NCBI GenBank assembly: GCA_036569045.1
Contig: DATCRI010000011.1
Coordinates: 62,001-126,000 of the forward strand
Length of the DNA stretch: 64,000 nt
Source of the DNA: Chthoniobacterales bacterium
GTDB taxonomy: Bacteria > Verrucomicrobiota > Verrucomicrobiia > Chthoniobacterales > JAATET01
Reading direction: 5' to 3'
Shown here: positions 15,665 to 33,388 of the stretch, one piece after another
How positions within the stretch are numbered: position 1 is the first letter of the stretch
Layout of the letters: each line of letters begins with the position of its first letter
Made by a program: the position numbers and the translations under genes
Notes under the pieces: model-generated
What the model saw: only the letters and a program-made list of their open reading frames with translations
The model's database searches: none
Told to the model about the DNA's origin: nothing

Positions 15665-16129
15665 TTAGGCCGCCTTCTTCTTCTCACGGATGGCAATGGT
15701 GCCACCAATCTTTTCGATCTTTTCGCGGGCGGTGTCCGTGATGTGATCGACTTCGAGCGTGAGCTTCTTGCTGATCTCGCCACGACCGAGGACCTTGACG
15801 CCGTCGATGTTGCCGCGGATCAGGCCGCTCTCGCGGAGGGCCGCTTCGTTGACCGAAGTGCCTTCGGCGAACACGCGCTCGAGATCATCGAGATTGACGA
15901 TGCCGAAGACGGTCTTGAAGTCCTTGTTGTTGAAGCCGCGCTTCGGCAGGCGACGAATGAGCGGCATCTGGCCGCCTTCGAAGCCAGGGCGGATGCCCTT
16001 GCCCGCGCGGGCCTTCTGACCTTTGTGGCCCTTGCCGGAGGTCTTGCCCTTGCCGGAGCTTTCGCCGAAGCCGAGACGCTTGCGGCGGTGCTTCGAACCA
16101 GGATTAGGAGAAAGAGTATGGAGTCTCAT
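15665..16129 (-). CDS. rplO: 50S ribosomal protein L15
   Basis: 154 residues. Glycine-rich basic start (NPGSKHRRKRLGFGESSGKG, then KTSGKGHKGQKARAG) that threads through 23S rRNA, followed by the globular C-terminal part. The gene follows rpsE after only 14 bases, leaving no room for rpmD (L30). Confidence 0.97.
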   Translation of the reverse strand: MRLHTLSPNPGSKHRRKRLGFGESSGKGKTSGKGHKGQKARAGKGIRPGFEGGQMPLIRRLPKRGFNNKDFKTVFGIVNLDDLERVFAEGTSVNEAALRESGLIRGNIDGVKVLGRGEISKKLTLEVDHITDTAREKIEKIGGTIAIREKKKAA

Positions 16130-16143
16130 GTTGGAATGCCCCC

Positions 16144-16728
16144 TTAGGCGGTGGCGACAGGCTCCGCGGCAGGCGCGACGGCCGCCGGGCGGATTTGCTT
16201 GCCGCGAATCTTCATGATCGCGTCACGATTGCGCAGGTCGCTGAGGGCCTTGATCGTGGCCTTGACGACGTTCGCGTGGTTGCTGGATCCGAGCGACTTG
16301 CCGAGCACGTCGCGGATACCGACCGCTTCGATGACGGCACGGACGCCGCCGCCCGCGATCACACCCGTTCCGGGCGAGGCCGGACGCAGGAGCACACGAC
16401 CGCCACCGAATTCACCGGTGACTTCATGCGGGATGGTGGCCTCGCGCACGGCGATGGTGACCATCTTCTTCTTCGCGGCCTCGGAGGCCTTGCGAATCGC
16501 TTCGGAAACTTCGTTCGCCTTGCCAAAGCCGTAACCGACCTTGCCCTTCTTATCGCCGGAGACGATGAGAGCGCTGAAACTGAAGCGGCGACCGCCCTTC
16601 ACGACTTTCGCGCAACGGTTGATGAAAACGACCTTCTCGACGGTGTCCGACTTCGGCTCTTCCGCGGCAGGGCCACGGCTGCGGCGGTCATTTCCGCCCC
16701 GACGATTGTTGTTGTTGGGAGCAGCCAT
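16144..16728 (-). CDS. rpsE: 30S ribosomal protein S5
   Basis: 194 residues from [19 protein letters not shown]; the longer frame to 16767 overlaps rplR and is unlikely. dsRNA-binding N-domain with [20 protein letters not shown] and the C-domain [19 protein letters not shown]. An Asn/Arg/Gly-rich ~25-residue head and an Ala/Pro tail ([13 protein letters not shown]) are longer than usual. S5 is a fidelity protein at the mRNA entry. Confidence 0.96.
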
Positions 16729-16729
16729 A

Positions 16730-17077
16730 TTAGAATTCAAGGCCCGCTTCACGAGCCGCGTCAGCAAGGGCTTTCACCTTGCCGTGGTAAGCGTTGCCGC
16801 CCCGGTCGAAAACGACCTTGCGGATGTTCTTTGCCGCGCCGCGTTCCGCGACGAGCTTGCCGATCTCAATGGCGGTGGCGACGTTCGCCTTGCCGGCCTT
16901 GAGTTCCTTTTCGGTCGTGTTGGCCGAAACGAGAGTAACGCCAGCCTCGTCATCGATGACCTGGGCCGTGATGTTGCGGCCGGAGAAATGCACCGCAAGG
17001 CGCGGGCGCTCCGTGGAACCGGAAACTTTTTTGCGCACGCGGGCGTGCCGCATTTTGCGCAGTTTGGTGTTTGCCAT
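16730..17077 (-). CDS. rplR: 50S ribosomal protein L18
   Basis: 115 residues; binds 5S rRNA with L5. Typical [20 protein letters not shown] start, and the end [19 protein letters not shown]. It starts 18 bases after rplF and overlaps nothing; rpsE begins 1 base after the stop. Confidence 0.97.
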
Positions 17078-17095
17078 ATACGTGAGTGGTCGAGG

Positions 17096-17635
17096 TTACT
17101 GGACGGTTTTGCCTTCCTTGCGGCGAACCTGCTCGCCGGCGTAACGGATGCCCTTGCCCTTGTAGGGTTCCGGCGGATAATAGGCGCGGATGTTCGCGGC
17201 GGCCTGGCCGACGATTTGTTTGTCGATGCCTTCCACGCTGATCTTCGTGTTGTCGGTGACAGTCACCTTGACTTCCGCGGGGATCGGGAAAAGCACGGCG
17301 TGCGACTTGCCGATGTTCAGGTTCAGGTTCGAACCCTGGACGGCGGCCTTGAAACCGACGCCCTGAATCTCGAGGTCGCGCTTAAAGCCCGTGGACACGC
17401 CGGTGACCATGTTGGCCACGAGAGCACGGCTGAGGCCGTGCATGGCGCGCGAGGTGCGGGTCTCCGTCTCGACCGTGATGGCGAGGCTCTTTTCCTCGAC
17501 CTTCGCGGCGACACCTTTCGGAAGCGTCCACTCGAGCTTGCCCTTGGGGCCCTCGACGACGACGGCTCCGTCGGCCGCAACGTTCACCTTCACCTTTTCG
17601 GGAAGGGCGATTTCTTTTTTACCAATACGAGACAT
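17096..17635 (-). CDS. rplF: 50S ribosomal protein L6
   Basis: 179 residues, two repeated alpha/beta domains. MSRIGKKEIALPEKVKVNV start and the C-terminal family signature PPEPYKGKGIRYAGEQVRRKEGK are present. It lies near the factor-binding site of the large subunit. Confidence 0.97.
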   Translation of the reverse strand: MSRIGKKEIALPEKVKVNVAADGAVVVEGPKGKLEWTLPKGVAAKVEEKSLAITVETETRTSRAMHGLSRALVANMVTGVSTGFKRDLEIQGVGFKAAVQGSNLNLNIGKSHAVLFPIPAEVKVTVTDNTKISVEGIDKQIVGQAAANIRAYYPPEPYKGKGIRYAGEQVRRKEGKTVQ

Positions 17636-17653
17636 TGTCGTTCCTCCTCGTAA

Positions 17654-18049
17654 TTACCAGACGTAGGCGAGAAGTTCGCCGCCGACTTTCTTGCGCTTGG
17701 CCTCATGACCGGTCATCACGCCGCTCGAAGTCGAGAGAATCGCGATGCCCATGCCGTTGAGAACGCGGGGAATCTCGTCCACGCTGACGTATTTGCGCAG
17801 GCCAGGCTTGCTGACGCGCTTCAGGCCCGCGACAGCGGCGACCTTGTTGACGAACTTATTCTGCACGTGGAGAACGGGGAATTTCCCGGTCGTGTCGAGT
17901 TCGTAATCGGCGATGTAGCCCTCACGCTTGAGGATGCGGACGAGTTCGCCCTTCATCTTCGAGTAAGGAACATCGAATTTGGGTTTGCCGACGCCCGCTG
18001 CGTTGCGCAGCCGGGTCAAGAGATCGGCGATGGGATCGGATACGGTCAT
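17654..18049 (-). CDS. rpsH: 30S ribosomal protein S8
   Basis: 131 residues. MTVSDPIADLLTRLRNA start and the signature GMGIAILSTSSGVMTGHEAKR near the C-terminus (S8 family STSxGxMTxxEAxxxxxGGE). It follows rplE by 63 bases with no rpsN in between, unlike the usual rplE-rpsN-rpsH order. Confidence 0.97.
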   Translation of the reverse strand: MTVSDPIADLLTRLRNAAGVGKPKFDVPYSKMKGELVRILKREGYIADYELDTTGKFPVLHVQNKFVNKVAAVAGLKRVSKPGLRKYVSVDEIPRVLNGMGIAILSTSSGVMTGHEAKRKKVGGELLAYVW

Positions 18050-18112
18050 GGTATTTGTGGTCGGGTCGAGCCGCGGCCCCGGTGAACTGCCGGGAACCTC
18101 GTTTCGCTGGCT

Positions 18113-18712
18113 TTAGGCCGCCACCTCGGGTTCAGGTTTTTTGATTTCGGGTTTTTTCTTGTCCGAGAAGGGGAATCCAAGCTCGGTCAAAAGGGTCTTT
18201 GCCTCGCCGTCCGTGCGGGCCGTCGTGACGATCGTGATGTCGAAGCCGATGTTGCGCTTGATCTTGTCGAGCTCAACTTCGGGGAAGATGGTCTGATCAG
18301 CGACACCGAGAGTGTAGTTGCCGTTGCCGTCGAAAGCCTTCGGCGACACGCCACGGAAGTCACGAATACGCGGGAGCGACATCTTGATGAGGCGCTCGAG
18401 GAATTCATACATCGCGCGGCCGCGAAGGGTGACCTTCGCGCCGATGGCCTGTTCGCCACGGAGCTTGAAATTCGCGATGCTCTTCTTGGCGATCGTCTCG
18501 ACCGGCTTCTGACCAGTAATGAGAGCGATCTCGGATTTCGCGACTTCGAGGGCTTCCTTTACGTCGTTGGCGGAGCCGATGGACGTGTTGACGACCACCT
18601 TCGTGAGGCGAGGAATCTGGTTCACGTTCGCGTAGCCATGCTTCTCACGAAGCGCGGGCACCACGCGAGCGCGGTATTCGTTCAAAAGTTCGGGTTCGGG
18701 TTGCGCAGTCAT
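18113..18712 (-). CDS. rplE: 50S ribosomal protein L5
   Basis: 199 residues; binds 5S rRNA and contacts P-site tRNA. LTKVVVNTSIGSANDVKEAL and RIRDFRGVSPKAFDGNGNY are family motifs. The C-terminus has an extra Lys/Pro/Glu tail (KKKPEIKKPEPEVAA) of ~15 residues. Confidence 0.97.
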   Translation of the reverse strand: MTAQPEPELLNEYRARVVPALREKHGYANVNQIPRLTKVVVNTSIGSANDVKEALEVAKSEIALITGQKPVETIAKKSIANFKLRGEQAIGAKVTLRGRAMYEFLERLIKMSLPRIRDFRGVSPKAFDGNGNYTLGVADQTIFPEVELDKIKRNIGFDITIVTTARTDGEAKTLLTELGFPFSDKKKPEIKKPEPEVAA

Positions 18713-19893: not shown

Positions 19894-20322
19894 TTAGGCA
19901 ACAGCGGCGGCGTGGTGACGCGCGAGAAAGCGCGTGCGGACGGGAAGTTTGTTGGCGGCGAGGCGCAGGCATTCCTTCGCGAGAGTCTCGGAGACACCTC
20001 CGAGTTCGAAAAGGACGTTGCCCGGTCGAACCGTGGCCACCCAGTATTCGGGCTGGCCCTTGCCTTTACCCATTCGGGTTTCCGGCGGGCGCGCCGTCAC
20101 GGACTTGTCCGGGAAAATGCGGATCCAGAGCTTGCCTTTGCGCTTCATGTTACGATTCATCGCAACACGGGCGGCTTCGATCTGGGTGTTCGTGATCCAG
20201 GCGCGTTCGAGGGTCTGAAGACCGTATTCGCCGAAATCGATGGAGAGCGTGCGTGAAGCATTCCCCTTGCGGCTACCCCGCTGGGTCTTGCGATACTTCA
20301 CCCGTTTTGGCATCAGTGGCAT
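19894..20322 (-). CDS. rplP: 50S ribosomal protein L16
   Basis: 142 residues; organises the A-site side of the peptidyl-transferase centre. [20 protein letters not shown] start, and the signatures [14 protein letters not shown]-like (here [16 protein letters not shown]) and [16 protein letters not shown]. Two Met codons near the start (20322 and 20313) are both possible. Confidence 0.97.
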
Positions 20323-20341
20323 GGCGTGTTCTCCTTAGAAA

Positions 20342-21013
20342 TTAGTTGGCGGAACCGGCCGGCTCATTGGCAGGCTCGTTTTCAGGCTTCTCGGCGGGCT
20401 TGGTCACCCAGCACTTCACGCCGATCTTTCCGGCAGTCGTGTCGGATTCGGCGAATCCGTAATCGATGGGCTTACGAAGGGTGTGGAGTGGCACGGAGCC
20501 CTCGCGATACCATTCGGTGCGAGCGATTTCCGAACCACCAAGGCGACCGGACACGCGAACCTTGATGCCTTCGGCACCCATGCTCATTGCGGTCTGGACG
20601 GCGCGTTTGATTGCGCGGCGGAAGGAAATGCGGCGTTCGAGCTGGCCGGCGACATTTTCGGCGACGAGCTGCGCATCGGTCTCGGGCTTCTTGATCTCGA
20701 CGATGTCGATCTTCACCTGCTTGCCTTCGGCGAGCTTGGAGAGTTCGTTCGTCATGTTCTCGATCTCGGATCCCTTGCGACCGATCACGACACCCGGACG
20801 GGCGGTGTAAATGGTGACGCGCACCGTGTTCCAGGCGCGTTCGATGAGAATCTTGGAAACCGCGGCGGTTTTGAGCTTCTTCTTGAGGTGCTCACGGATG
20901 CGCACGTCGACGAGAAGATAATCGGCGAGATCCTTCTTCGAGGCATACCACTTCGAGCGCCAGTCGCGGTTGACTGGCAGGCGGAAGCCGATTGGATTGA
21001 CTTTCTGTCCCAT
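20342..21013 (-). CDS. rpsC: 30S ribosomal protein S3
   Basis: 223 residues. N-terminal KH domain with [17 protein letters not shown], and the C-terminal signature [20 protein letters not shown]. Part of the mRNA entry helicase with S4 and S5. An Asn/Pro/Glu-rich tail ([16 protein letters not shown]) follows the conserved end. Confidence 0.97.
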
Positions 21014-21015
21014 GG

Positions 21016-21498
21016 TTATTCTTTCTTTTCGGCGGCGGCCTCGGCAGCAGGAGCTTCCGTGGCAGGCGCCGTCTCAGCCGTAGCGGCCGGTTTTGCGGAC
21101 TTCTTCGGCTTGGCCGACTTGCCCGCGGTCTTCTTCGTATTCTTTGTCTCGCGACGCTTGATCTCGACCTCGTCCGTAAGCGTGATCTTGATGTGGCTCG
21201 TGCGCTTGCGGATCGGGCCGGCGCTGCCGCGGGCCTTCGGAACGAAACGCTTGAGCGTCGGTCCCTCACCCACGATCGCTTCCTGCACGACGAGAGTATC
21301 AACCCGCAGGTTGTTGTTGTTCTCCGCGTTGGCAATGGCGCTCTTCAGCGTTTTGCTGATGAGTGCCGCAGCCTTCTTCGGGGTGAAACGAAGCACGCTG
21401 AGCGCATCGGTGGCGGGAAGCCCCTGAATCTCTCGAGTGACTTCCCGAGCCTTGAAGGCCGAGATCCTCGCATACCGATATGTCGATTGAACCTGCAT
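21016..21498 (-). CDS. rplV: 50S ribosomal protein L22 with a long Ala/Lys/Pro C-terminal tail
   Basis: 160 residues instead of ~110. The globular core and exit-tunnel loop are normal ([20 protein letters not shown] to [11 protein letters not shown]), after which a ~45-residue low-complexity tail runs [20 protein letters not shown] and ends [12 protein letters not shown]22 lines the exit tunnel and its C-terminus faces the outside, so the tail would sit at the subunit surface. rpsC follows after 2 bases. Confidence 0.96.
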
Positions 21499-21527
21499 GT
21501 CTAGTTGATTAATTCTGTCTGTGTATC

Positions 21528-22334
21528 TTACTGCCGGGCGTCGACCCGCAGCTGGTCACCGGCTTTCACCGGATTCTTATTGTTTTCCAAACTCTGGATG
21601 ACGGCTCCCGCGATGCGCTCGCGCACATCGACCACTCGAACCTCGCCAATCTTGCTGCCGCTGCGCCACACCTCGAAGGGCATGCCGATCTTCACACCGT
21701 GTTTTTCACCTACGTTCATGACGATCAGGGAAAGATCGTCTCGAATGTCGGAAACGATGGCGTCGGAGAGGCTCACTTCCGTCCCCTCTGGCTGGGCGAC
21801 TCCCGCGGGAGCACCAAGCAATTCGGCGGTTTTTCGCAACTCAGCCTCGACCGAACCACGCGTCTCGGGTTCGACGTTTTCCGTCGTTTTGAGCAGCGTC
21901 ATCACCGCTTCGGAAAGCTGGATGAGCTCGCTTCGGTATTCCTCGCCGTTCTTCTTGGCGATTCGAAGATCCCGGACGGCTGCGAGCAACTTCTGCTCGA
22001 GCTTGTCCTGATCCCCCTCGACGCCGGCAATGCCAAGCGCCTGGAGTTTCAGGGTCGCATCCGCCGCCTGCCGCTTGTAGGTCTCGGCTTCGGCGTTGGC
22101 GTTGGCCAGGCTTTGGGTGAGTTGTTTCACCGTATTTTGCAGCAGGACGACGCGCTCTTCGATCGGGGCGTCTTGGTCATCGCCTCCGTTCGGATTCGCA
22201 GTTCGGCCACCTCCGCTGGTAATGACCCGCGGAGCGCTGATTCCAGAATTTGTCAAAGATCGTTCGTCCTGCGCGTCGGCGAAGTTCGCCAGTCCGAGGA
22301 CACAGATGCCTGCCACTATCGCGGCAAGTTTCAT
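21528..22334 (-). CDS. Exported coiled-coil protein of unknown function embedded in the S10 cluster
   Basis: 268 residues, not a ribosomal protein. A signal peptide, MKLAAIVAGICVLGLANFADA, directs it to the periplasm. A Gly/Asn/Asp-rich linker (~22-55) is followed by a coiled coil (~57-135, e.g. ERVVLLQNTVKQLTQSLANA). The C-terminal ~70 residues form a beta-rich domain with SLIVMNVGEKHGVKIGMPFE and GEVRVVDVRERIAGAVIQSL, similar in flavour to C-terminal domains of exported proteins such as FlgT, but no family can be named with certainty. It begins 8 bases after rpsS and ends 29 bases before rplV on the same strand, so it must be co-transcribed with ribosomal genes. GC and codon use match its neighbours. 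Confidence 0.85.
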   Translation of the reverse strand: MKLAAIVAGICVLGLANFADAQDERSLTNSGISAPRVITSGGGRTANPNGGDDQDAPIEERVVLLQNTVKQLTQSLANANAEAETYKRQAADATLKLQALGIAGVEGDQDKLEQKLLAAVRDLRIAKKNGEEYRSELIQLSEAVMTLLKTTENVEPETRGSVEAELRKTAELLGAPAGVAQPEGTEVSLSDAIVSDIRDDLSLIVMNVGEKHGVKIGMPFEVWRSGSKIGEVRVVDVRERIAGAVIQSLENNKNPVKAGDQLRVDARQ

Positions 22335-22342
22335 CCGTTCTA

Positions 22343-22621
22343 TTACTTGCTCACCTTGGCGGTGTGAGAACCGTGCTTCTTGAAGATGCGCGTAGGCGCA
22401 AATTCGCCAAGCTTGTGCCCGACCATGTTCTCGGTGACGAACACCGGGATGAAGGTCTTGCCGTTGTGGATATTGAAAGTGTGACCAACGAAGTCAGGCG
22501 TCACCGTCGAACGGCGGGCCCAGGTCTTGATGGGCTTCTTGATGTTGGCGTCGTTGAGCTTGTCGATCTTCTCGAGCAGCTTCATGTCGACGTAAGGGCC
22601 TTTTTTCAGTGAGCGTCCCAT
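22343..22621 (-). CDS. rpsS: 30S ribosomal protein S19
   Basis: 92 residues, normal. [20 protein letters not shown] start and the signature [20 protein letters not shown] near the end. Forms the S13-S19 head pair. Followed, unusually, by the exported coiled-coil gene rather than rplV. Confidence 0.97.
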
Positions 22622-22630
22622 AATGGTAGA

Positions 22631-23482
22631 TTACTTGGCTTTCTTGCGGCTGGGGCGGCGCTCCACGATGAAGCTGTCCGACTTCTTGTGCTTGCGACGG
22701 GTCTTGAAGCCCTTCGCGAGCTGACCCCACGGGCTCTGCGGATGCTGGCGTCCGCCACCACCCTTGCTCTTGCCTTCGCCACCACCCATCGGGTGATCGA
22801 CCGGGTTCATCGCCATACCGCGAGTCTGCGGGCGAATACCGAGCCAGCGATGACGTCCGGCCTTGCCGCTGGAGACGTTCATGTGATCGACGTTGCTGAC
22901 CTGGCCAACCGTGGCGTAGCAGGCTTCGTTGATCTTGCGAATTTCGCCGGAAGCGAGTTTCACAAAAGCGTAGCCGCCTTCGCGGTTGTTCAGGATGGCC
23001 TGGGTGCCGGCACTGCGAACGATCTGGCCGCCGCGTCCCGCGACGAGCTCGATGTTGTGGATGCCCGTGCCGAGCGGGATGGAACGGAGCGGGAGGGCGT
23101 TGCCAACCTTCGCTTCGATCGCCTCGCCAGCCGCGACCTTCGCGCCAACGTTGAGGCCGGCGGGAGCGAGAATGTAGGCCTTCTCGCCATCGGGATACTG
23201 GATGAGAGCGATGCGGGCCGTGCGGTTCGGATCGTATTCGATCGCGACCACGTCGGCGACGACGTCACGCTTGTTGCGCTTGAAGTCGATCACGCGATAC
23301 ATGCGCTTGTGACCACCGCCACGGTGACGGGCGGTCTTGCGGCCGTTGTTGTTGCGGCCGCCGGTCTTCTTGATCGGCTCGAGCAGGCTCTTCTCAGGCG
23401 TGCTCTTGGTGATCTCCGCGAAGTCCGGAAGCTCCTTGAAGCGGGCGGACGGCGTGAGAGGGCGGAAAGTTTTGAGTCCCAT
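22631..23482 (-). CDS. rplB: 50S ribosomal protein L2
   Basis: 283 residues; needed for subunit association and peptidyl transfer. [20 protein letters not shown] start, [17 protein letters not shown], and the signature [18 protein letters not shown] containing the conserved His of the family (PVDHPHGGGEG with Met at the usual His position after DHP). 10-base gap to rpsS. Confidence 0.97.
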
Positions 23483-23485
23483 GGC

Positions 23486-23770
23486 TTAAACGAGGTCGAG
23501 CTTCTCGCCCGCCTTGAGCGTGACGATGGCCTTTTTCCAATGCGGCTTCCGGCCGAAGTCGGCCCGACGCTCGCGCTTTTTCTTGCCCGCGTAGTTCGCG
23601 GTATTCACGTCGACGACCGTCTTCTTGAAGAGCTGCTCGATGGCACGCTTGATCTCGAGTTTGGTCGCGGTCGGGGCGACGCGGAAGGTGTATTTGCCGT
23701 GGGCCTCGGAAAGGAGCGTGGCCTTTTCCGTGAGGATGACGGTCTGGATCTGGTCGAAAATGGTGCTCAT
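23486..23770 (-). CDS. rplW: 50S ribosomal protein L23
   Basis: 94 residues; at the tunnel exit, docking site for trigger factor and SRP. IQTVILTEKATLLSEAHGKY and VAPTATKLEIKRAIEQLF are typical. Three bases separate it from rplB and one from rplD. Confidence 0.96.
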   Translation of the reverse strand: MSTIFDQIQTVILTEKATLLSEAHGKYTFRVAPTATKLEIKRAIEQLFKKTVVDVNTANYAGKKKRERRADFGRKPHWKKAIVTLKAGEKLDLV

Positions 23771-23771
23771 C

Positions 23772-24386
23772 TTAGGCGAGCCTTTCAGCGAGTTTGGCCA
23801 CCGCGTCGCGGGTGACGATGATCTTGTCGTAAGCGAGGAGCTGCTCGGTGTTGACGTCCGTCGCCGTGGCGAGAAGGGACGTCTGCACGTTGCGAGCGGC
23901 CATGAAGGTCTTCTCGTCGAACTGGCTGCCGAGAACGAGCGTCTTGCGAGCGTCCTTGGCGGCGTTAGCGACGAGGCTGATGAATTGCTTGGTCTTCGGC
24001 TCGCTCACCGCGAAGGACTCCACGACGACGACGTCGCCAGCGAGAATCCGGGCGCTGAGAGCCTTGCGAAAGGCCAGCTTCTTGACCTGCTTGGGAATGT
24101 TCTTCGAGTAATCGCGAGGGCGAGGACCGTGAGCGGCGCCGCCACCAACCCAGATGGGCGAAGCGAACGAGCCCGCACGAGCGCGGCCGGTGCCTTTCTG
24201 TCGCCAAGGCTTCTTGCCGGACAGATTGACCTCACTGCGCTTCTTGGCGCAGGCGGTGCCACTGCGGCGGGCAGCCTGGAGAGCGACCACGACGTCGTGA
24301 ACGGCCTGGTTGCCCTTCTTCTCCTCGGTGATCAGCTCGATTTTGGCCTTCTGGGCCTCTTCAGCGGTAAAAACGGTGGCGCTCAT
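23772..24386 (-). CDS. rplD: 50S ribosomal protein L4
   Basis: 204 residues. The extended loop that reaches the exit tunnel is visible as SEVNLSGKKPWRQKGTGRAR, followed by WVGGGAAHGPRPRDYSKNIP. In other bacteria L4 represses its own S10 operon; no sequence here tests that. It starts 3 bases after rplC. Confidence 0.97.
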   Translation of the reverse strand: MSATVFTAEEAQKAKIELITEEKKGNQAVHDVVVALQAARRSGTACAKKRSEVNLSGKKPWRQKGTGRARAGSFASPIWVGGGAAHGPRPRDYSKNIPKQVKKLAFRKALSARILAGDVVVVESFAVSEPKTKQFISLVANAAKDARKTLVLGSQFDEKTFMAARNVQTSLLATATDVNTEQLLAYDKIIVTRDAVAKLAERLA

Positions 24387-24389
24387 GGC

Positions 24390-25034
24390 TTAGGCTTTCT
24401 TGGCGACCTTCTTCTTGGAAGGACGCACGATGACGTAGGATCCCTTCGCACCAGCGACAGCGCCGCTGACGAGGATCACGTTCTCGGATTCACGCACCTG
24501 GACGATGCGCAGGTTCTGGACGGTCTTGCGCTCGTCACCCATGTGACCAGGCATGCCCATGTTCTTCCAAACACGGCCCGGGGTCGAACGATTACCGATG
24601 GCGCCGTTCCGGCGGTGCATCATGGAACCGTGAGTTTCCGGCTGACCGGCGAAATTGAAACGCTTGACGACACCCTGAAAGCCCTTGCCCTTCGAAGTGC
24701 CGATGACGTCCACAAACTGGCCGACTTCGAAAATCGTGGTGGGAACGTCGACGCTCTCGGGAGCGGCTTCGCCGTCCTTGAGGCGGAATTCGCGGATGAA
24801 ACGCTTGGCGCCGCTCTCGGACTTCTTGAAATGGCCGAGCTGGGCCTTGCTCACGCGTTGCGGCTTCTGGTCGTCGAAACCGACCTGCACGGCCGTGTAG
24901 CCGTCCTTCTCCTGATCCTTGACCTGGAGAATGCGGTTACCGCCCGTGGCGATCACGGTGACGGCCTGGGCCACGCCCTTGTCGTCATAGACGCGGGTCA
25001 TGCCGATTTTTTTTCCTAACAATCCAATGCTCAT
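24390..25034 (-). CDS. rplC: 50S ribosomal protein L3
   Basis: 214 residues from MSIGLLGKKIGMTRVYDDKG; the open frame to 25100 overlaps rpsJ and is rejected. The long loop reaching the peptidyl-transferase centre, including GAIGNRSTPGRVWKNMGMPG, contains the Gln/Arg-rich finger of the family in the preceding segment FNFAGQPETHGSMMHRRNG. Ends with KKKVAKKA. Confidence 0.96.
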   Translation of the reverse strand: MSIGLLGKKIGMTRVYDDKGVAQAVTVIATGGNRILQVKDQEKDGYTAVQVGFDDQKPQRVSKAQLGHFKKSESGAKRFIREFRLKDGEAAPESVDVPTTIFEVGQFVDVIGTSKGKGFQGVVKRFNFAGQPETHGSMMHRRNGAIGNRSTPGRVWKNMGMPGHMGDERKTVQNLRIVQVRESENVILVSGAVAGAKGSYVIVRPSKKKVAKKA

Positions 25035-25041
25035 GGCGACG

Positions 25042-25353
25042 TCAGATCTTGATGGTGATGTCCACGCCAGCCGGGAGGTTGAGCTTGCGGAGCTCATCAA
25101 CGGTCTTGGCGGTCGGCTCGACGATGTCGAGCAGGCGCTTGTGCGTGCGAATCTCGAACGCGTCCATCGACTTCTTGTCGACGTGGGGCGAGCGGTTCAC
25201 GGTGAATTTCTCAATGCGAGTCGGAAGCGGGATCGGGCCCGTCACTTTGGACCCGGTGCGCTTTGCCGTCTCGACGATCTCGGCGGCGGAAGCGTCGAGG
25301 ATGCGATAGTCAAACGCCTTGAGGCGGATGCGGATTTTTTGGCCGTTCGTCAT
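25042..25353 (-). CDS. rpsJ: 30S ribosomal protein S10
   Basis: 103 residues. [20 protein letters not shown] and the signature [20 protein letters not shown] are present. It follows fusA by 12 bases; no tuf gene is between them. Confidence 0.97.
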
Positions 25354-25365
25354 GATGGCAATCGA

Positions 25366-27537
25366 TTAGTTTTTCTGTTCAACGACCGCGTTGAGCACTT
25401 GTTGCGGAACCTGCTCGAAGTGCGAGGGCTCCATCGAATACGAGGAGCGGCCCTTCGAGAGGGAGCGGATGGCCGTGGCGTAACCGAACATTTCGGCGAG
25501 CGGCACTTCGGCGTTGATCGTGGTGAGGTTCCCCTTGGTCTCGAGACCGGAGATTTTCGCGCGGCGACGGTTCAGGTCGCCCATGATGTCGCCCTGGAAT
25601 TCTTCCGGGGTGATGTTTTCGACCTTCATGATCGGCTCGAGCAGGATCGACTTCGCATTCTTGAGGCCGTCCTTCAAAGCGAAGATCGCCGCCATTTTGA
25701 ACGCCATTTCGTTCGAGTCCACGTCGTGGTAGCTGCCGTCGACGATGTCGATGTGAATGTCGATAACGGGCGAACCGCAGATGATGCCATTCAGCGTGGC
25801 TTCGTTGAGGCCCTTGATGACCGCAGGGATGAAGTCCTTCGGAATGGAACCACCGACCGTCTTGTTTTCGATCGTGACCCCCTTGCCGCGCTCGTTCGGA
25901 GCGACCTTGATGACGACGTGGCCATACTGACCACGGCCACCGGACTGCTTGACGAGTTTGCCCTCGCCATCGGCGGCCTTGATGATCGTCTCCTTGTAAG
26001 CGATCTGCGGCTTGCCGGAGTTCGCCTCGACCTTGAACTCGCGCATCATGCGATCGCGAATGATCTCCAGGTGAAGCTCGCCCATGCCGGCGATGATCGT
26101 CTGGCCGGTGTCTTCGTTGGTGAAAACGCGGAAGGTCGGATCTTCTTCAGCGAGACGCGCGAGTGCGTTGCCCATCTTCTCCTGGTCGGCCTTTGTCTTG
26201 GGCTCGATGGCCATCGAGATCACCGGATCAGGGAAGGACGGCGGCTCGAGCAGGATCGGATAATCCTCGTCGCAGAGCGTATCGCCCGTCGTGATGTTCT
26301 TGATGCCAACGATCGCGGCGATGTCGCCGGAATAGCAGGTGTCGATGTCTTCGCGCTTGTCCGCCTGAATCTGGATGATGCGGCTGATGCGCTCGCGCTT
26401 GTTCGTGCGCGGGTTGTAAACCGTGTCGCCCTTGGAAAGCTTGCCGCTGTAGACGCGGAAGAACACGAGCTTACCGACGAAAGGATCGCTCCAGAGCTTG
26501 AAGGCGAGCGAGCAAAACTTGCCGCTGTCGTCCGCCGGCGCGAGCATCTCGGACGCGTCGTCCGGATTCTGACCCTTGGCGGCAGGAATTTCGATCGGGC
26601 TCGGGAGATAGTCGACAACGGCGTCGACGAGGAACTGAACGCCCTTGTTCTTGAAGGCGGAACCACCGGCAACGGGAACGAACTTGTTCGCGATGGTCTG
26701 GCGACGGATGGCCGCCTTGAGATCCTGCTTCGTGATCGGCTGCTCCTCGAGGAACTTCATGCCGATCTCGTCGTCGAGGTCGCACATCTGGTCGATGATG
26801 TCCTGATAAGCCACTTCGGCCGAAGCCTTGAGCTCCGTCGGGATCTCGACGATTTCGTAGGTCGACCCCATCGAGTTGTCGTCGAGGTAGCGAACAGCCT
26901 TCTGGTTCAGGACGTCGATCTGGCCGACGAGCGTATCTTCCTTGCCCCAGGGAATGAGAATCGGCCAGACGTTGGCACCGAGCTTGGTGCGCATGCTCTC
27001 GACGGCAGCCTCGAAATCGGCGCCGGTGCGATCCATCTTGTTGACGAACGCGATGCGCGGCACGCCATACTTGGTGGCCTGACGCCAGACAGTCTCGGAC
27101 TGCGGCTGCACGCCGGCGACACCGCAGAACACGGCGATCGCGCCGTCGAGCACGCGCAGGGAACGCTCCACTTCAGCCGTGAAGTCCACGTGGCCGGGAG
27201 TGTCGATGATGTTGACGCGCTGCTTGATGCCTTCGAAAGCCTTGTAGATGCCTTCGACGGGTTCCTTGCGCTGCAACCACGAACAGGTCGTGGCGGCAGA
27301 GGTGATCGTGATGCCGCGCTCGCGCTCCTGCTCCATCCAGTCGGTCACGGTCGTGCCTTCATGCACTTCACCGATCTTATGGATCATGCCGGTGTAGAAG
27401 AGGATACGCTCGGTGAGCGTGGTCTTGCCCGCGTCGATATGGGCGCAGATCCCGATGTTACGGGTGCGCTCGAGCGGGAACGCGCGGTCGGGCGAGTTCG
27501 GATTCGAAGCGGATTTTTCCTGGAGCGTAGCGGACAT
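25366..27537 (-). CDS. fusA: Translation elongation factor G
   Basis: 723 residues; GTPase that translocates tRNA and mRNA. G1 AHIDAGKTT, switch [11 protein letters not shown]4 [10 protein letters not shown], domain IV region [14 protein letters not shown] and C-terminal domain V are complete. Residues [14 protein letters not shown] match the canonical effector loop. Located in the standard str position rpsL-rpsG-fusA. Confidence 0.97.
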
Positions 27538-28648: not shown

Positions 28649-29581
28649 TTATGCGGCTGCGCGGGTGATTTGCCCCCCTGCGGGACGACGTCCATACAGG
28701 CAGGGACAGCATCCAAAGGCTTCAGCAAACGCTTTACTGAAGTGACTGAGACTGGAATAACCGACGGTCACCGCGGCCTCGGTGACGTTCGCCTCGCCCC
28801 CGCGAAGCAGCTCGGCCGCGCGCTCGAGGCGCGCCCGGCGCAGGTAGGCGGAGATCGTGATGCCGGTTTCCTGGCGGAAGATGCGACTGAGATAGAACGG
28901 GCTGCATCCCACGCGTTTCCCCAGCTCGGCCAGCGCGGGGGGATTTTCGATATCGGCGCGAAGGATCTCCTGCACGCGCTCGACCCGCTCGCGACCGACG
29001 CGTTTCGTGCGTTCGCAGAAAAGCTCGGATTTGCTTTCGACAAAAAGCGCGGAGGAAACCAGCTCCAGCGCCTTGGCATGGTGCCACGGGAGCCAGGCGG
29101 CGGGGGCCGCCGGAGGCTGGAGCATATCGATCGCGATCTGGGAAATTCGCGCGGTCATGGGCCGAACTTCGCAGATCGACTCCCCTCCCCGCGATGTTTC
29201 GATAAACTGCCGAACGATGGGACGCAGTTCGTTTGCGGCCGGAGAGGCCCACCGGGCAATCCACGAGCGCCGCATCTCCAATGCGACGAAGCGATGGCGC
29301 TGACCGCCGATTCGCTCCAGATTCTGACGCCGGCGCGGCGCGGTTGCGAGAGCCATGCTCCCCGGCTCCATCGCCCAAGGCTGCGTCTCCCCTCCTTGGA
29401 AGCGCCCCTGGCCATTCACATTCAGACAGAGAACGAGAGAGTGCGGGTCGAACCAATGGCGGCCGGGCGGCTCATCACTTTCATCCCACCGGGTGATGCG
29501 AAATCCTTCCTCTCGAGGATCGCCGAAACTCCCACGCTCGGAGCGGGCGGAGGCAGGCAAGGGAACGGAGTCAGCTGACAT
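28649..29581 (-). CDS. AraC-family transcriptional regulator at the end of the haem operon
   Basis: 310 residues. The C-terminal ~100 residues hold the two AraC helix-turn-helix units: PPALAELGKRVGCSPFYLSR and NVTEAAVTVGYSSLSHFSKAF, with linker FRQETGITISAYLRRARLER. The N-terminal ~190 residues (e.g. LVLCLNVNGQGRFQGGETQP) look like a cupin-type sensor. Its position just after hmuV, same strand, and the Fur-box-like site in front suggest a PchR-like, iron/haem-linked regulator; the ligand is unknown. Confidence 0.85.
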   Translation of the reverse strand: MSADSVPLPASARSERGSFGDPREEGFRITRWDESDEPPGRHWFDPHSLVLCLNVNGQGRFQGGETQPWAMEPGSMALATAPRRRQNLERIGGQRHRFVALEMRRSWIARWASPAANELRPIVRQFIETSRGGESICEVRPMTARISQIAIDMLQPPAAPAAWLPWHHAKALELVSSALFVESKSELFCERTKRVGRERVERVQEILRADIENPPALAELGKRVGCSPFYLSRIFRQETGITISAYLRRARLERAAELLRGGEANVTEAAVTVGYSSLSHFSKAFAEAFGCCPCLYGRRPAGGQITRAAA

Positions 29582-29598
29582 CGGACGGATCTTCTACA

Positions 29599-29613
29599 TG
29601 AGATTGCGTCTCA
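29599..29613. promoter_or_regulatory. Candidate Fur box upstream of the AraC gene
   Basis: TGAGATTGCGTCTCA is a 7-1-7 inverted repeat that matches the common Fur variant TGAGAATnATTCTCA at 11 of 14 paired positions. It lies 18 bases before the AraC start. A possible -10 box for that gene, TATAGT (29625-29620 on the - strand), sits next to it; I see no good -35. Iron control is inferred from the site and the neighbouring haem genes. Confidence 0.5.
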
Positions 29614-29671
29614 CTCTCAACTATAAAGTCTCGGAAGTTGGGTGGTTCACGCCGGCAACGACTGTCCGGTC

Positions 29672-30439
29672 TCAGGCCACGTGAAAAACGGCATGTTCTC
29701 GCCCCGGGATGGTCTGCACGCGGATGCCGTAGGCGATTTCCAGCCAATCGGGCGTCATGACCGCGGTCGCGTCGCCGGACCCGAGGACACGGCCGTAATG
29801 GAGAAGACAGACCTTGTCCGCATATCGCGCGCAGAGGTTCAGATCGTGGAGGACGACAACGACGCACCCGCCAGAGTCGGCAAATCGGCGCACGATTCGC
29901 AGGATGTCGCGCTGATGGCGAAGATCGAGACTGGATGTCGGCTCGTCGAGCAGCAGCCAGCGTCCCTCCCCTTCCGTGCCGACCTGGGCAAACGCCCGGG
30001 CGAGATGCACGCGCTGGCGTTCGCCTCCGGAAAGCGTGGTGTAATCGCGATCGGCCCAGCGGACCAGGTCGACCGCCTCGAGCGCGGCAAGCGCGGCCGC
30101 CTCGTCGATATTGCGTTCCCCGCCATCAAGATGCGGCGCGCGGCCCTGAAGAATCACCTCGAGCACGGTGAAGGGGAAGTTGAGCGCGCTCGATTGCGGC
30201 ACGACGGCCCGCCGACGGGCGAGAGTGGCAGGTTTCCAATCCGCCAACGGTTGCCGTCCGAAACTCACGCTCCCCGAGTCCGGCTTCAGGTCGCCGCTCA
30301 GGACGCGCAGGAGCGTCGACTTCCCGGCGCCATTGGAGCCCAGAATGGCCGTGACCTTCCCGTGCGGAGCCCGGAAGTTCACGCCGCCAAGAATGGGACG
30401 GCCCTTGCGCTCCACGAAAATGTCCTTTGCCTCGATCAT
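29672..30439 (-). CDS. hmuV: Haem ABC transporter ATP-binding protein
   Basis: 255 residues from MIEAKDIFVERKGRPILGGV. Walker A GSNGAGKST, Q loop VPQSSALNFPF, signature LSGGERQRVHLARAFAQ, Walker B WLLLDEPTSSLD, switch VLHDLN. The insertion around GTEGEGRW before Walker B is typical of HmuV. The ATG overlaps the hmuU stop (ATGA), so translation is coupled. Confidence 0.92.
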   Translation of the reverse strand: MIEAKDIFVERKGRPILGGVNFRAPHGKVTAILGSNGAGKSTLLRVLSGDLKPDSGSVSFGRQPLADWKPATLARRRAVVPQSSALNFPFTVLEVILQGRAPHLDGGERNIDEAAALAALEAVDLVRWADRDYTTLSGGERQRVHLARAFAQVGTEGEGRWLLLDEPTSSLDLRHQRDILRIVRRFADSGGCVVVVLHDLNLCARYADKVCLLHYGRVLGSGDATAVMTPDWLEIAYGIRVQTIPGREHAVFHVA

Positions 30440-31545
30440 GGCTGCCAGACGGCCTTGGCCCGCAGGAGCAGCCACAGAAAGAAAGGCGCCCCGAGAAGCG
30501 CAGTCAGGATGCCAATCGGCAACTCCGCCGGCGCGACAAGGCAGCGCGCAAGGGTGTCGGCGCCAACGAGGAGAGCCGCCCCGAGAAGCGCGGAAGCCGG
30601 GAGCAGAAAGCGGTGATCCGGGCCGGCGACGAGTCGGACCGCATGCGGAACGATGAGCCCGACAAACCCGATGACGCCGGTGAAGGCGACCGAGACGCCC
30701 ACCATCACGGTCGAGAGGAGAATGACCAGCGATTTCGTCCGCCGGACATCGAAACCGAGATGGGACGCCTCAGATTCTCCGAGTAACAGGCCATTGAGCG
30801 CCCGCGCCACGAAGGGCAGCAGCGTGAGCCCCACGAGGACAACCGGAGCGACGATGACGACCTTCGCCCACGTGGCGGCGCCGAGACTGCCCAACAACCA
30901 GAACGTCACGTCGCGCACCTGCTGATCATTCGCCAGGAAGATCATGAAAGCCGTGAGCGCCCCGGCCAGGGCATTGATCGCCACGCCGGCGAGGAGCATG
31001 GTGGCGACCACGGGATGGCCGTCGTGCAGCGACAGCTGCAAGATCACCAGCGTGGCGACGAGGCATCCCACGAACGCAGCCGTCGCGAGAAGATACGGTG
31101 CGGCCCAGTCGGGCAGCACCGGCAAAACGCGGTGCCCGAGCACGATCACCCCCACCGCCCCGCATGCCGCGCCCGCCGAGATTCCGATCAATCCCGGGTC
31201 CGCCAGCGGATTCCGAAACAATCCCTGCATCGAGGCCCCGCAGACCGCCAGCGCAGCCCCGATCAATGCCGCAAGCACGACCCGCGGGAGGCGGATCTGC
31301 AGAACGACGGTGCGCACGGTCGCATCCACCTCCCCGCCAGGCCCCGTGGCGAGAGCGAAAATGTCCGCCGGCGCGATGCGCATGGGCCCGATCGTCACCG
31401 CGGCCAGCGCGCATCCGAAAAGGAGCGCCACCAAAGCAAGAAACAGCCACCGACGCCGGCGCCGGGAGCGACGCAGAAGTTCTGCCGGGGCCGGAGCCTC
31501 CGACGGCGTCCAATCTGTCGCCCCGGACCAGGCGTTTTCCATCAC
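30436..31545 (-). CDS. hmuU: Haem ABC transporter permease (FecCD family)
   Basis: 369 residues with ~10 membrane helices. FecCD signatures RLPRVVLAALIGAALAVCGA and NPLADPGLIGISAGAACGAV, and VGFVGLIVPHAVRLVAGPDH near the end. About 35 cytoplasmic residues precede the first helix. It overlaps hmuT upstream by four bases and hmuV downstream by four. Confidence 0.92.
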   Translation of the reverse strand: MMENAWSGATDWTPSEAPAPAELLRRSRRRRRWLFLALVALLFGCALAAVTIGPMRIAPADIFALATGPGGEVDATVRTVVLQIRLPRVVLAALIGAALAVCGASMQGLFRNPLADPGLIGISAGAACGAVGVIVLGHRVLPVLPDWAAPYLLATAAFVGCLVATLVILQLSLHDGHPVVATMLLAGVAINALAGALTAFMIFLANDQQVRDVTFWLLGSLGAATWAKVVIVAPVVLVGLTLLPFVARALNGLLLGESEASHLGFDVRRTKSLVILLSTVMVGVSVAFTGVIGFVGLIVPHAVRLVAGPDHRFLLPASALLGAALLVGADTLARCLVAPAELPIGILTALLGAPFFLWLLLRAKAVWQP

Positions 31546-32363
31546 TTGCGGGCCGCCTGGGCCAATTCCCTCGCTGCCTGGGCAGAGCGCGGCCCGAGGC
31601 CGAGCAGATACATGTCGTCGAAGACCAGCAGGTGATCATTCTTCACGGCCGCCGTGGGGCTGAGGGCGGGATTCGCCTTCAGTTTCTCGAGGCCGCCGCT
31701 GGCCTGCACCGTGCGCTGCCCGGTGACGATCACCGCAGGATTCTGCCCGACGAGCGCCTCCCCGGAGACGGGTTTGTAACCCTCCGTGTCGGCGAAGATG
31801 TTTTTCAAGCCGGCGGCCGTGAGCATCGCGTCGGCCGCGGTGCCCCGGCCGGCGCCGATGAGGGTGCCGTCGCTGCGCGCCATCACGTAAACCGCGGTGA
31901 CTGGCTCGCCCTGCTTCGCCGTGGCCTCGGCAACCTCGCGATCGGTCTCGAAAGTGCTGGCGAGCCTCTCGCCGTCGGCCTTCGCGTCGAAAGCCTCGGC
32001 GACGGCCCGAATTTTCCCTTCGATGCCGGGAAGCGTATGGTCTTTTGGCAACGCGACGATCGGAATCCCCGCCGCCTTGAGCTGGGCCATTGTTTCCGCC
32101 GGCCCCGCCTCGCCGCTCGCGAGGATGAGGTCGGGCTTCATGGCGAGGATGCCCTCCGCGGAGAGAGCCCGCACGTAGCCGACTTTCGGCAACTTGAGCG
32201 CCGCCTCGGGATAGACGCTCGTGACGTCCACCGCCGCGAGCGTGTCGCCCTTGCCGAGCGCGTAGACAATTTCCGTGATGTCACCGCCCAGGGTGACAAC
32301 GCGCTGAGGCGCCGCCAGGGCGGTGCCGCCCAGCACCATCGAGAGAAGAACGTGGCGGAGCAT
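31542..32363 (-). CDS. hmuT: Haem ABC transporter periplasmic binding protein
   Basis: 273 residues. Signal peptide MLRHVLLSMVLGGTALAA, then VVTLGGDITEIVYALGKGD. The motif VGYVRALSAEGILAMKPDLI matches the HmuT/ShuT region that contains the haem-ligating Tyr. The start at 32363 was chosen because it gives a signal peptide and overlaps the hmuS stop by one base; the open frame continues to 32630 without meaning. Confidence 0.92.
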   Translation of the reverse strand: MLRHVLLSMVLGGTALAAPQRVVTLGGDITEIVYALGKGDTLAAVDVTSVYPEAALKLPKVGYVRALSAEGILAMKPDLILASGEAGPAETMAQLKAAGIPIVALPKDHTLPGIEGKIRAVAEAFDAKADGERLASTFETDREVAEATAKQGEPVTAVYVMARSDGTLIGAGRGTAADAMLTAAGLKNIFADTEGYKPVSGEALVGQNPAVIVTGQRTVQASGGLEKLKANPALSPTAAVKNDHLLVFDDMYLLGLGPRSAQAARELAQAARK

Positions 32364-33388
32364 CAGTCGAGGGAGGCTGCGAGGTTGCGCCAGTTGGAAT
32401 CCTCGGCTTCGCCGGGTTTCCGCTTTCCGAAGAACAGCGCGATGTTCTCGCCCGTCGCATCGTAGAGCTCGACCGAGGTCACGGCACCGTCCCTGGTCGG
32501 CTTTCGCACGAGCCACGCGCTGGCCACGCCGGATTCGCGGAGGTGCAGATTGAACTCGGCATCGAGGACGTTGATCCAGTCGCCGTAGGGCACGATCCGG
32601 TTGACTTCGCCGGTGTGAATCTGGATGCATCCGCGATTGCCGACAAAGACCATGATCGGCAGTTTCGCGGCGGAGGCGGCGCGCAGGAGGTCCCCGGCGA
32701 CCTTCGCGGAAAGCGGCGTGGCAAACTCCGGCCCGAGGAGCCGCAGAGCCTGCACGCGCCCCACCTGGAATTTGCGCAGCAGACCGAAGAAGTGGTGGGT
32801 GTCCTCCATGGCCCGGAAGGCCTCGAGAAATCCGGCGACGTCGATCTCGGCATCCGAGCGATCGGGCGCGGCGGCCTCCACCGGCAGGGCGACGAAGCCA
32901 TGGTCGTCACCCCGGAAATCGGCGATGAGTTTTTCAAAAGCGGTGAGATCGCTGTCGTCCTGCAGGAAAACCTTGTGCAGGGCGAGGCCGTCCGCGCCAA
33001 AGATCTGGACGCTGTTGTGCGCGCCGGTGGCCTCGTCCTCCCGCACGGCGAACGCCGCGCTCCACGACATCGGGAACAACCGCAAATCGATATCCGGTCC
33101 CACAACCTGGCCCATCGCGCCGCCACCGAAGAAACCGATCTCGCGGAAGAGCCCCTTGCGCTCATGCACGGCGTGCTCGTTGCGGGTGAGGCACATCACG
33201 CGACCGAGTTCCTTGAAGGCCTCGAGCAGCTCCGGCCATTCGGGGCGGAGGCGGATGACATGGTCGCCGGTCGCGAGAAGTTCCGCCTCGCTCACGCCGA
33301 GGCGGGCGGCGGCATCGCGGATGCGCAGTTTGGGTTCCGCCTGACGGAGTTCCGCCCAGGCCGATTTGAGATCGGAAGTGGTTTTCAT
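32363..33388 (-). CDS. hmuS: Haemin-degrading/haem-trafficking factor HmuS
   Basis: 341 residues, the family's usual length, made of two similar halves (~1-165 and ~190-341). RNEHAVHERKGLFREIGFFG and MGQVVGPDIDLRLFPMSW are hallmark motifs of the first half, VGNRGCIQIHTGEVNRIVPY of the second. Cytoplasmic; members bind haem and release iron or pass haem on. First gene of the coupled hmuSTUV operon; no TonB-dependent haem receptor is in the window. Confidence 0.92.
   Translation of the reverse strand: MKTTSDLKSAWAELRQAEPKLRIRDAAARLGVSEAELLATGDHVIRLRPEWPELLEAFKELGRVMCLTRNEHAVHERKGLFREIGFFGGGAMGQVVGPDIDLRLFPMSWSAAFAVREDEATGAHNSVQIFGADGLALHKVFLQDDSDLTAFEKLIADFRGDDHGFVALPVEAAAPDRSDAEIDVAGFLEAFRAMEDTHHFFGLLRKFQVGRVQALRLLGPEFATPLSAKVAGDLLRAASAAKLPIMVFVGNRGCIQIHTGEVNRIVPYGDWINVLDAEFNLHLRESGVASAWLVRKPTRDGAVTSVELYDATGENIALFFGKRKPGEAEDSNWRNLAASLD

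Follow-up and report, generated by a model that had tools for sequence, protein, structure and literature searches.

Why does a gene for a predicted exported protein lie between two ribosomal protein genes, rpsS and rplV? Few features of bacterial genomes are as well conserved as the order of genes in the S10 operon, and to find a predicted exported protein fixed inside that operon over much of a phylum is unusual. The case arose in a 64,000-nucleotide stretch of a Chthoniobacterales genome (assembly GCA_036569045.1, contig DATCRI010000011.1, positions 62,001 to 126,000; hereafter the window), which carries an S10-spc gene cluster on its minus strand. Embedded in the cluster is a 268-codon open reading frame (ORF) with an ATG start (21528..22334, minus strand). 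It lies 8 bp from rpsS on its 5' side (S19; 22343..22621, minus strand; Pfam PF00203 Ribosomal_S19, E=1.8e-37) and 29 bp from rplV on its 3' side (L22; 21016..21498, minus strand; PF00237 Ribosomal_L22, E=6.7e-38), so the ORF and the Pfam matches of its neighbours confirm the placement given by a first-pass annotation of this DNA. The rpsS-rplV junction of E. coli K-12 measures 14 bp for comparison. We consider there to be an even chance that the gene is an ancestral companion of rplV, encoding a Sec-exported scaffold or assembly factor of the envelope that is co-transcribed with the ribosomal genes and translated at an ordinary level.

Selection on the ORF was assessed by comparison with two congeneric species. 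The ratio of nonsynonymous to synonymous divergence (dN/dS) was 0.18 and 0.21 over the whole gene, indicating that it is a real protein-coding gene under purifying selection. In the same two comparisons the ratio was lowest in the helical part of the protein (0.10-0.11), followed by the C-terminal domain (0.17-0.20) and the signal and linker parts (0.5-0.6). The corresponding range for rplV and rpsC was 0.03-0.09.

The gene is not confined to one strain. A scan with the window protein alone reached a single congener, and the closest relative that carries a name is a Terrimicrobiaceae MAG (L032), in keeping with a place in Verrucomicrobiota. Amongst 38 genomes, nearly all from the window's order, 27 carried a homologue and all 27 copies were placed between rpsS and rplV. 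Five of the 11 genomes without a homologue have no rpsS in the assembly. The other six comprise three empty junctions (9-28 bp), one junction of 552 bp and two of 148 and 313 bp. The 552-bp junction (locus L033, G006:C35) holds no convincing homologous ORF and may contain a copy of the gene that has decayed or diverged strongly. The 148- and 313-bp junctions, likewise without a homologous ORF, belong to two 0.9-Mb genomes whose larger-genome congeners keep the gene, which looks like gene erosion in reduced genomes.

A profile of the 27 homologues was then run against 141 genomes of the class. Strong matches were found in 73, each of them 3' of rpsS and on its strand, at a median distance of 121 bp and a maximum of 1162 bp (domain match to domain match). 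The class loci with a strong match that were sampled all sit between rpsS and rplV. We read the junction directly in 55 class genomes that gave no strong match. Thirteen of these encode a short form of 111-130 residues that consists of the signal peptide and the C-terminal domain only, with no helical part (families f21, f23, f40, f44, f46 and f49). The remaining junctions without the gene span 1-50 bp in most families, and 80-220 bp with no homologous ORF in some members of f23; a profile search detected no gene remnants in the empty junctions. We also searched 145 genomes with a broader profile (A2), built from 54 sequences, and compared the matches with rpsS positions; beyond the class, eight families again had the gene between rpsS and rplV, at 14 loci in total. 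It is thus retained across much of Verrucomicrobiota. The possibility of a single-strain insertion, which the first-pass annotation had proposed to check by comparing the junction across Verrucomicrobia, is decisively contradicted, and synteny across the phylum rules out a mobile or strain-specific insertion. There was no sign of phage origin, PHROGs giving just coiled-coil-type traces.

Operons that have been broken apart identify the partner of the gene. In a further group of families the S10 operon stops after rpsS and unrelated genes follow. Such splits were seen in many families outside the class at loci L163, L165, L167-L169, L171, L173-L175, L178, L179, L183 and L185-L187, where rpsS is followed by unrelated genes or by no long ORF and, where checked, the rplV half lies elsewhere in the genome. 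We located rplV in 20 genomes, and in 16 of them the gene directly precedes rplV, which rpsC and rplP follow. Three of the exceptions do not carry the gene in this place (G190, G175 and G169) and in the fourth the operon is not split (G236). Because the gene heads the rplV half where the operon is cut after rpsS, rplV, rather than the rpsS-rplV pair, is its stable partner. The first-pass annotation had placed its weight on the rpsS-rplV junction; the gene does lie there in many genomes, but the constant partner is rplV alone. Members of the rplV-linked group have in common the position directly 5' of rplV, an N-terminal hydrophobic segment and a C-terminal barrel. The linkage can serve as a marker of synteny within the phylum, and it illustrates how ribosomal operons come apart.

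To follow the history of the gene, presence and absence were mapped on a tree of L22 and S3 from 170 loci, by a change count that does not orient the changes. Presence and absence require 16 changes; a three-state coding requires 17, the short form costing one extra. Repeated insertion at a single site would be far less likely than one ancestral gene lost again and again, because homologues occupy the same position across the deepest split drawn, in split and unsplit operons. The largest loss covers families f19, f22, f25, f27, f28, f30-f32, f34, f36, f39, f41, f43, f45, f47 and f50.

We next considered the protein. A Sec signal peptide is predicted at residues 1-21, with A-D-A before the likely cleavage site (22272..22334, minus strand). 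A hydrophobic 12-mer lies within the first 45 residues of 101 of the 110 homologues, and several of the other nine probably have a wrongly assigned start codon. This supports the earlier view of a signal-peptide protein of the envelope, export being predicted. The predicted start of the mature protein (22242..22271, minus strand) contains the motif S-L-T-N, which most relatives within the order also show behind their signal peptides (alignment A1); most mature proteins in the order start near S-L-[T/S/K]. A full-length AlphaFold2 (AF2) model contained helices at residues 58-99, 109-149 and 156-172 followed by a beta domain, with a mean predicted local distance difference test score (pLDDT) of 81.7 and a predicted template modelling score (pTM) of 0.41. 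The long helices are in line with the coiled coil proposed by the first-pass annotation, but heptad periodicity was weak, with p=0.02 in one helix and ~0.1 in each of the remaining two, and 'long helical region' is therefore the safer term for residues 58-172 (21819..22163, minus strand), the part missing from the short forms. The length that precedes the C-terminal domain ranges from 27 to 473 residues among homologues. One homologue of 558 residues (L142:1216-2889) has a very long insert rich in proline, lysine and serine between its signal peptide and helical part.

The C-terminal beta domain (residues 186-268; 21531..21779, minus strand) is the only part common to all forms of the protein. 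Modelled in isolation with 92 homologues, it gave a confident six-stranded structure (pLDDT 92.8, pTM 0.81), bearing out the beta-rich domain of the earlier description. One glycine is present in all 92 domains, and two further glycines and one arginine in at least 90%; the conserved positions in the window protein are G209, G217, G259 and R238. Structure prediction and remote homology, the route suggested in the first-pass annotation, led to a six-stranded barrel of 70 residues and of the FlgT_C/TsaP-like kind. Foldseek searches with the domain placed FlgT at the top (3w1e and 8z5n, TM-scores by query length of 0.75 and 0.73), followed by the N-terminal barrels of F1-type ATPases and then MreC (2j5u, 6zm0). 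In profile searches the best match in the Protein Data Bank (PDB) was TsaP (3jc8, E=3e-5), a match made up of two weak segments; MreC reached 0.15. FlgT_C (PF16538) left a trace in 34 of the 92 domains. No Pfam or NCBIfam family exceeded its cut-off for the window protein, and traces alone were seen across homologues. Judging from the model, the domain resembles the barrels of the ring-associated proteins FlgT and TsaP, and membership in neither family is established.

FlgT belongs to the H ring of the Vibrio flagellum (PMC7693769). It shares with the window protein the barrel fold (3W1E; LPHT ring 8Z5N), the motif G-x3-G-V-x2-G with the strands that follow it, and an envelope location, here by predicted export; the helical rod and the rplV linkage are found in the window protein only. 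Gene order shows no flagellar link, the genomes themselves not having been searched for flagella. A paralogue with matching architecture occurs in the window's own genome (G000:C81, L067:1060-1836), where a protein of 258 residues has an N-terminal hydrophobic segment, a long helical region and the same type of C-terminal domain (A2 match, E=1.2e-10). This paralogue adjoins unrelated genes, is not linked to rplV and has a score much lower than those of the rplV-linked group. Further paralogues of this type appear as second matches in many genomes, sometimes as tandem pairs, again with no rplV linkage. CT421.2, a signature protein of ~53 to >80 residues found in the four main phyla of the Planctomycetes-Verrucomicrobia-Chlamydiae (PVC) group (PMC3444138), is likewise uncharacterised and conserved in PVC bacteria, and we saw no relation between it and the window protein, though no test was aimed at one. 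No published description of the rpsS/rplV arrangement or of the protein was found in the literature searched, most subscription papers being outside the search. As far as tested, the fold is thus of a known kind whilst the family and its linkage to rplV are new.

The first-pass annotation expected expression at ribosomal levels. For the codon adaptation index (CAI), the window's 21 ribosomal and EF-G genes served as the reference set, and 232 other ORFs, taken from stretches of the genome, formed the background. The gene scored 0.477, at the 60th percentile, against the 73rd-99th for its 21 ribosomal and EF-G neighbours. The pattern recurs in homologues: codon adaptation is below the ribosomal-neighbour mean in 107 of 110 loci and below every neighbour in 69 of them. 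Synonymous divergence of the gene also exceeds that of rplV and rpsC. Average codon adaptation and higher synonymous divergence speak against translation at the ribosomal level, and the earlier expectation is not upheld. They do not speak against shared transcription with the ribosomal genes, and co-transcription is likely. As to a separate transcription unit, which the first-pass annotation had named as a counter-case, a consensus scan of the operon strand returned no promoter-like site near the gene, although it may still have its own promoter, and no terminator-like site in the 8-bp or 29-bp gap.

Taken together, how would such a companion of rplV work? The signal sequence would direct Sec export, and would be cleaved or, in some lineages, possibly retained. 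Co-transcription with ribosomal genes would make supply rise with growth, translation itself being ordinary. In the periplasm the helical part would most probably form a rod of variable length that oligomerises and serves as a spacer, and the barrel would dock on an envelope partner, by analogy with the barrels of FlgT and TsaP at outer-membrane rings. The outcome would be a structural or assembly factor of the envelope coupled to growth; the match to growth rate that the first-pass annotation proposed for its envelope role is plausible. Such a protein would give Verrucomicrobiota, a phylum with important gut and soil bacteria, a conserved and uncharacterised envelope factor. Several results weigh against this account. 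The short forms lack the helical part, on which the idea of a scaffold rests, and no partner protein was identified. FlgT_C scores of 19.4 bits for the full protein and 24.5 bits for the isolated domain are below the curated Pfam cut-off of 27 bits, and TsaP matches to single domains are weak. The protein is also dispensable, as shown by ~16 state changes on the tree and by large clades that lack it although their genomes are big. A more ambitious version is that the Verrucomicrobiota ancestor wired an envelope-building protein beside rplV so that envelope assembly scales with ribosome synthesis, a dedicated growth-law link selected even after the operon broke. We regard this as speculative, though with a real chance of being right; if true, it would tie translation to the cell envelope by a dedicated route.

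Four rival explanations were weighed. The gene may be a passenger, an envelope gene unrelated to translation that landed before rplV in an ancestor and stays since operon rearrangement is costly. Its average codon adaptation, its repeated loss and the paralogues of the same layout elsewhere in genomes would all suit a passenger, which we nevertheless think unlikely: clean removal has happened many times (gaps of 1-50 bp), so that cost poorly explains retention, and in split operons the gene goes with rplV, not rpsS. Linkage specifically to rplV, from a place directly upstream of it and outlasting operon splitting, is instead what SecM-like action in cis would favour, whereby the chain, as it is translated and exported, would signal the state of the Sec pathway and adjust translation of rplV. 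Low codon adaptation relative to the neighbours also fits. Conservation, however, resides in the folded domain, the C-terminal tail is variable and has no common arrest-like motif, the gap to rplV ranges from 0 to >100 bp across loci, and an Rfam search of 20000..26000 returned no known RNA element, leaving such regulation improbable.

The remaining alternatives assign the protein to a known envelope machine. In one of them it would serve a secretin machine, either a type IV pilus or type II secretion, as an accessory similar to TsaP whose barrel binds the secretin ring and whose helical part replaces the LysM region. TsaP, the best profile match, is an envelope protein, as is predicted here, and shares the order of C-terminal motifs, and FlgT, the best fold match, is also ring-associated. 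TsaP has an N-terminal, peptidoglycan-binding LysM domain, however; Pfam gave no match to it in the window protein, nor did it figure in the 25 families seen most often across 54 homologues. Of the 141 class genomes, 129 have secretins, and these include both genomes that carry the gene and genomes that lack it. Family f20 departs from nearly all of the class in that 11 of its 12 genomes have no detected secretin, and the sampled f20 genomes also have no gene, in line with a secretin role; this coincidence concerns a single lineage. Gene-less genomes often keep several secretins (f19, f34, f23 and others), and one genome with the short form has no detected secretin (G153). A strict secretin link finds no support: the distribution of the gene does not follow that of secretins, and many secretin-bearing genomes are without it. 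We judge the accessory role unlikely. An MreC-like part in the rod (elongasome) machinery would account for the layout of membrane signal, helical part and small barrel, for the MreC structures amongst the fold matches, and for traces in Pfam (PF04085, 9 of 92 domains) and NCBIfam (5 of 54 members). The MreC core nevertheless has two barrels, against one six-stranded barrel here, the PF04085 cut-off is not reached, and the genome encodes its true MreC elsewhere (G000:C44:3016-3480, E=1.7e-38). In genus g27 of family f15 no genome has a listed MreC, unlike nearly all other class genomes, and the gene is kept; many genomes with MreC are without the gene. This distribution rules out an obligatory MreC or rod role, and we judge a MreC-like function very improbable.

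Further features of the ribosomal cluster were recorded in the window. The usual places of rpsN (S14) and rpmD (L30) are the rplE-rpsH and rpsE-rplO intervals, respectively. Within 15665-18712 no ORF of at least 60 residues was found for rpsN between rplE and rpsH, or for rpmD between rpsE and rplO; the rest of the genome was not searched. The L22 protein of the window (21016-21498) has a C-terminal extension of ~50 residues rich in lysine and alanine. Following the ribosomal cluster, 28649-32630 encodes an AraC-type regulator and an ABC uptake set of the iron/heme type, consisting of an ATPase, a FecCD permease and a periplasmic binding protein.
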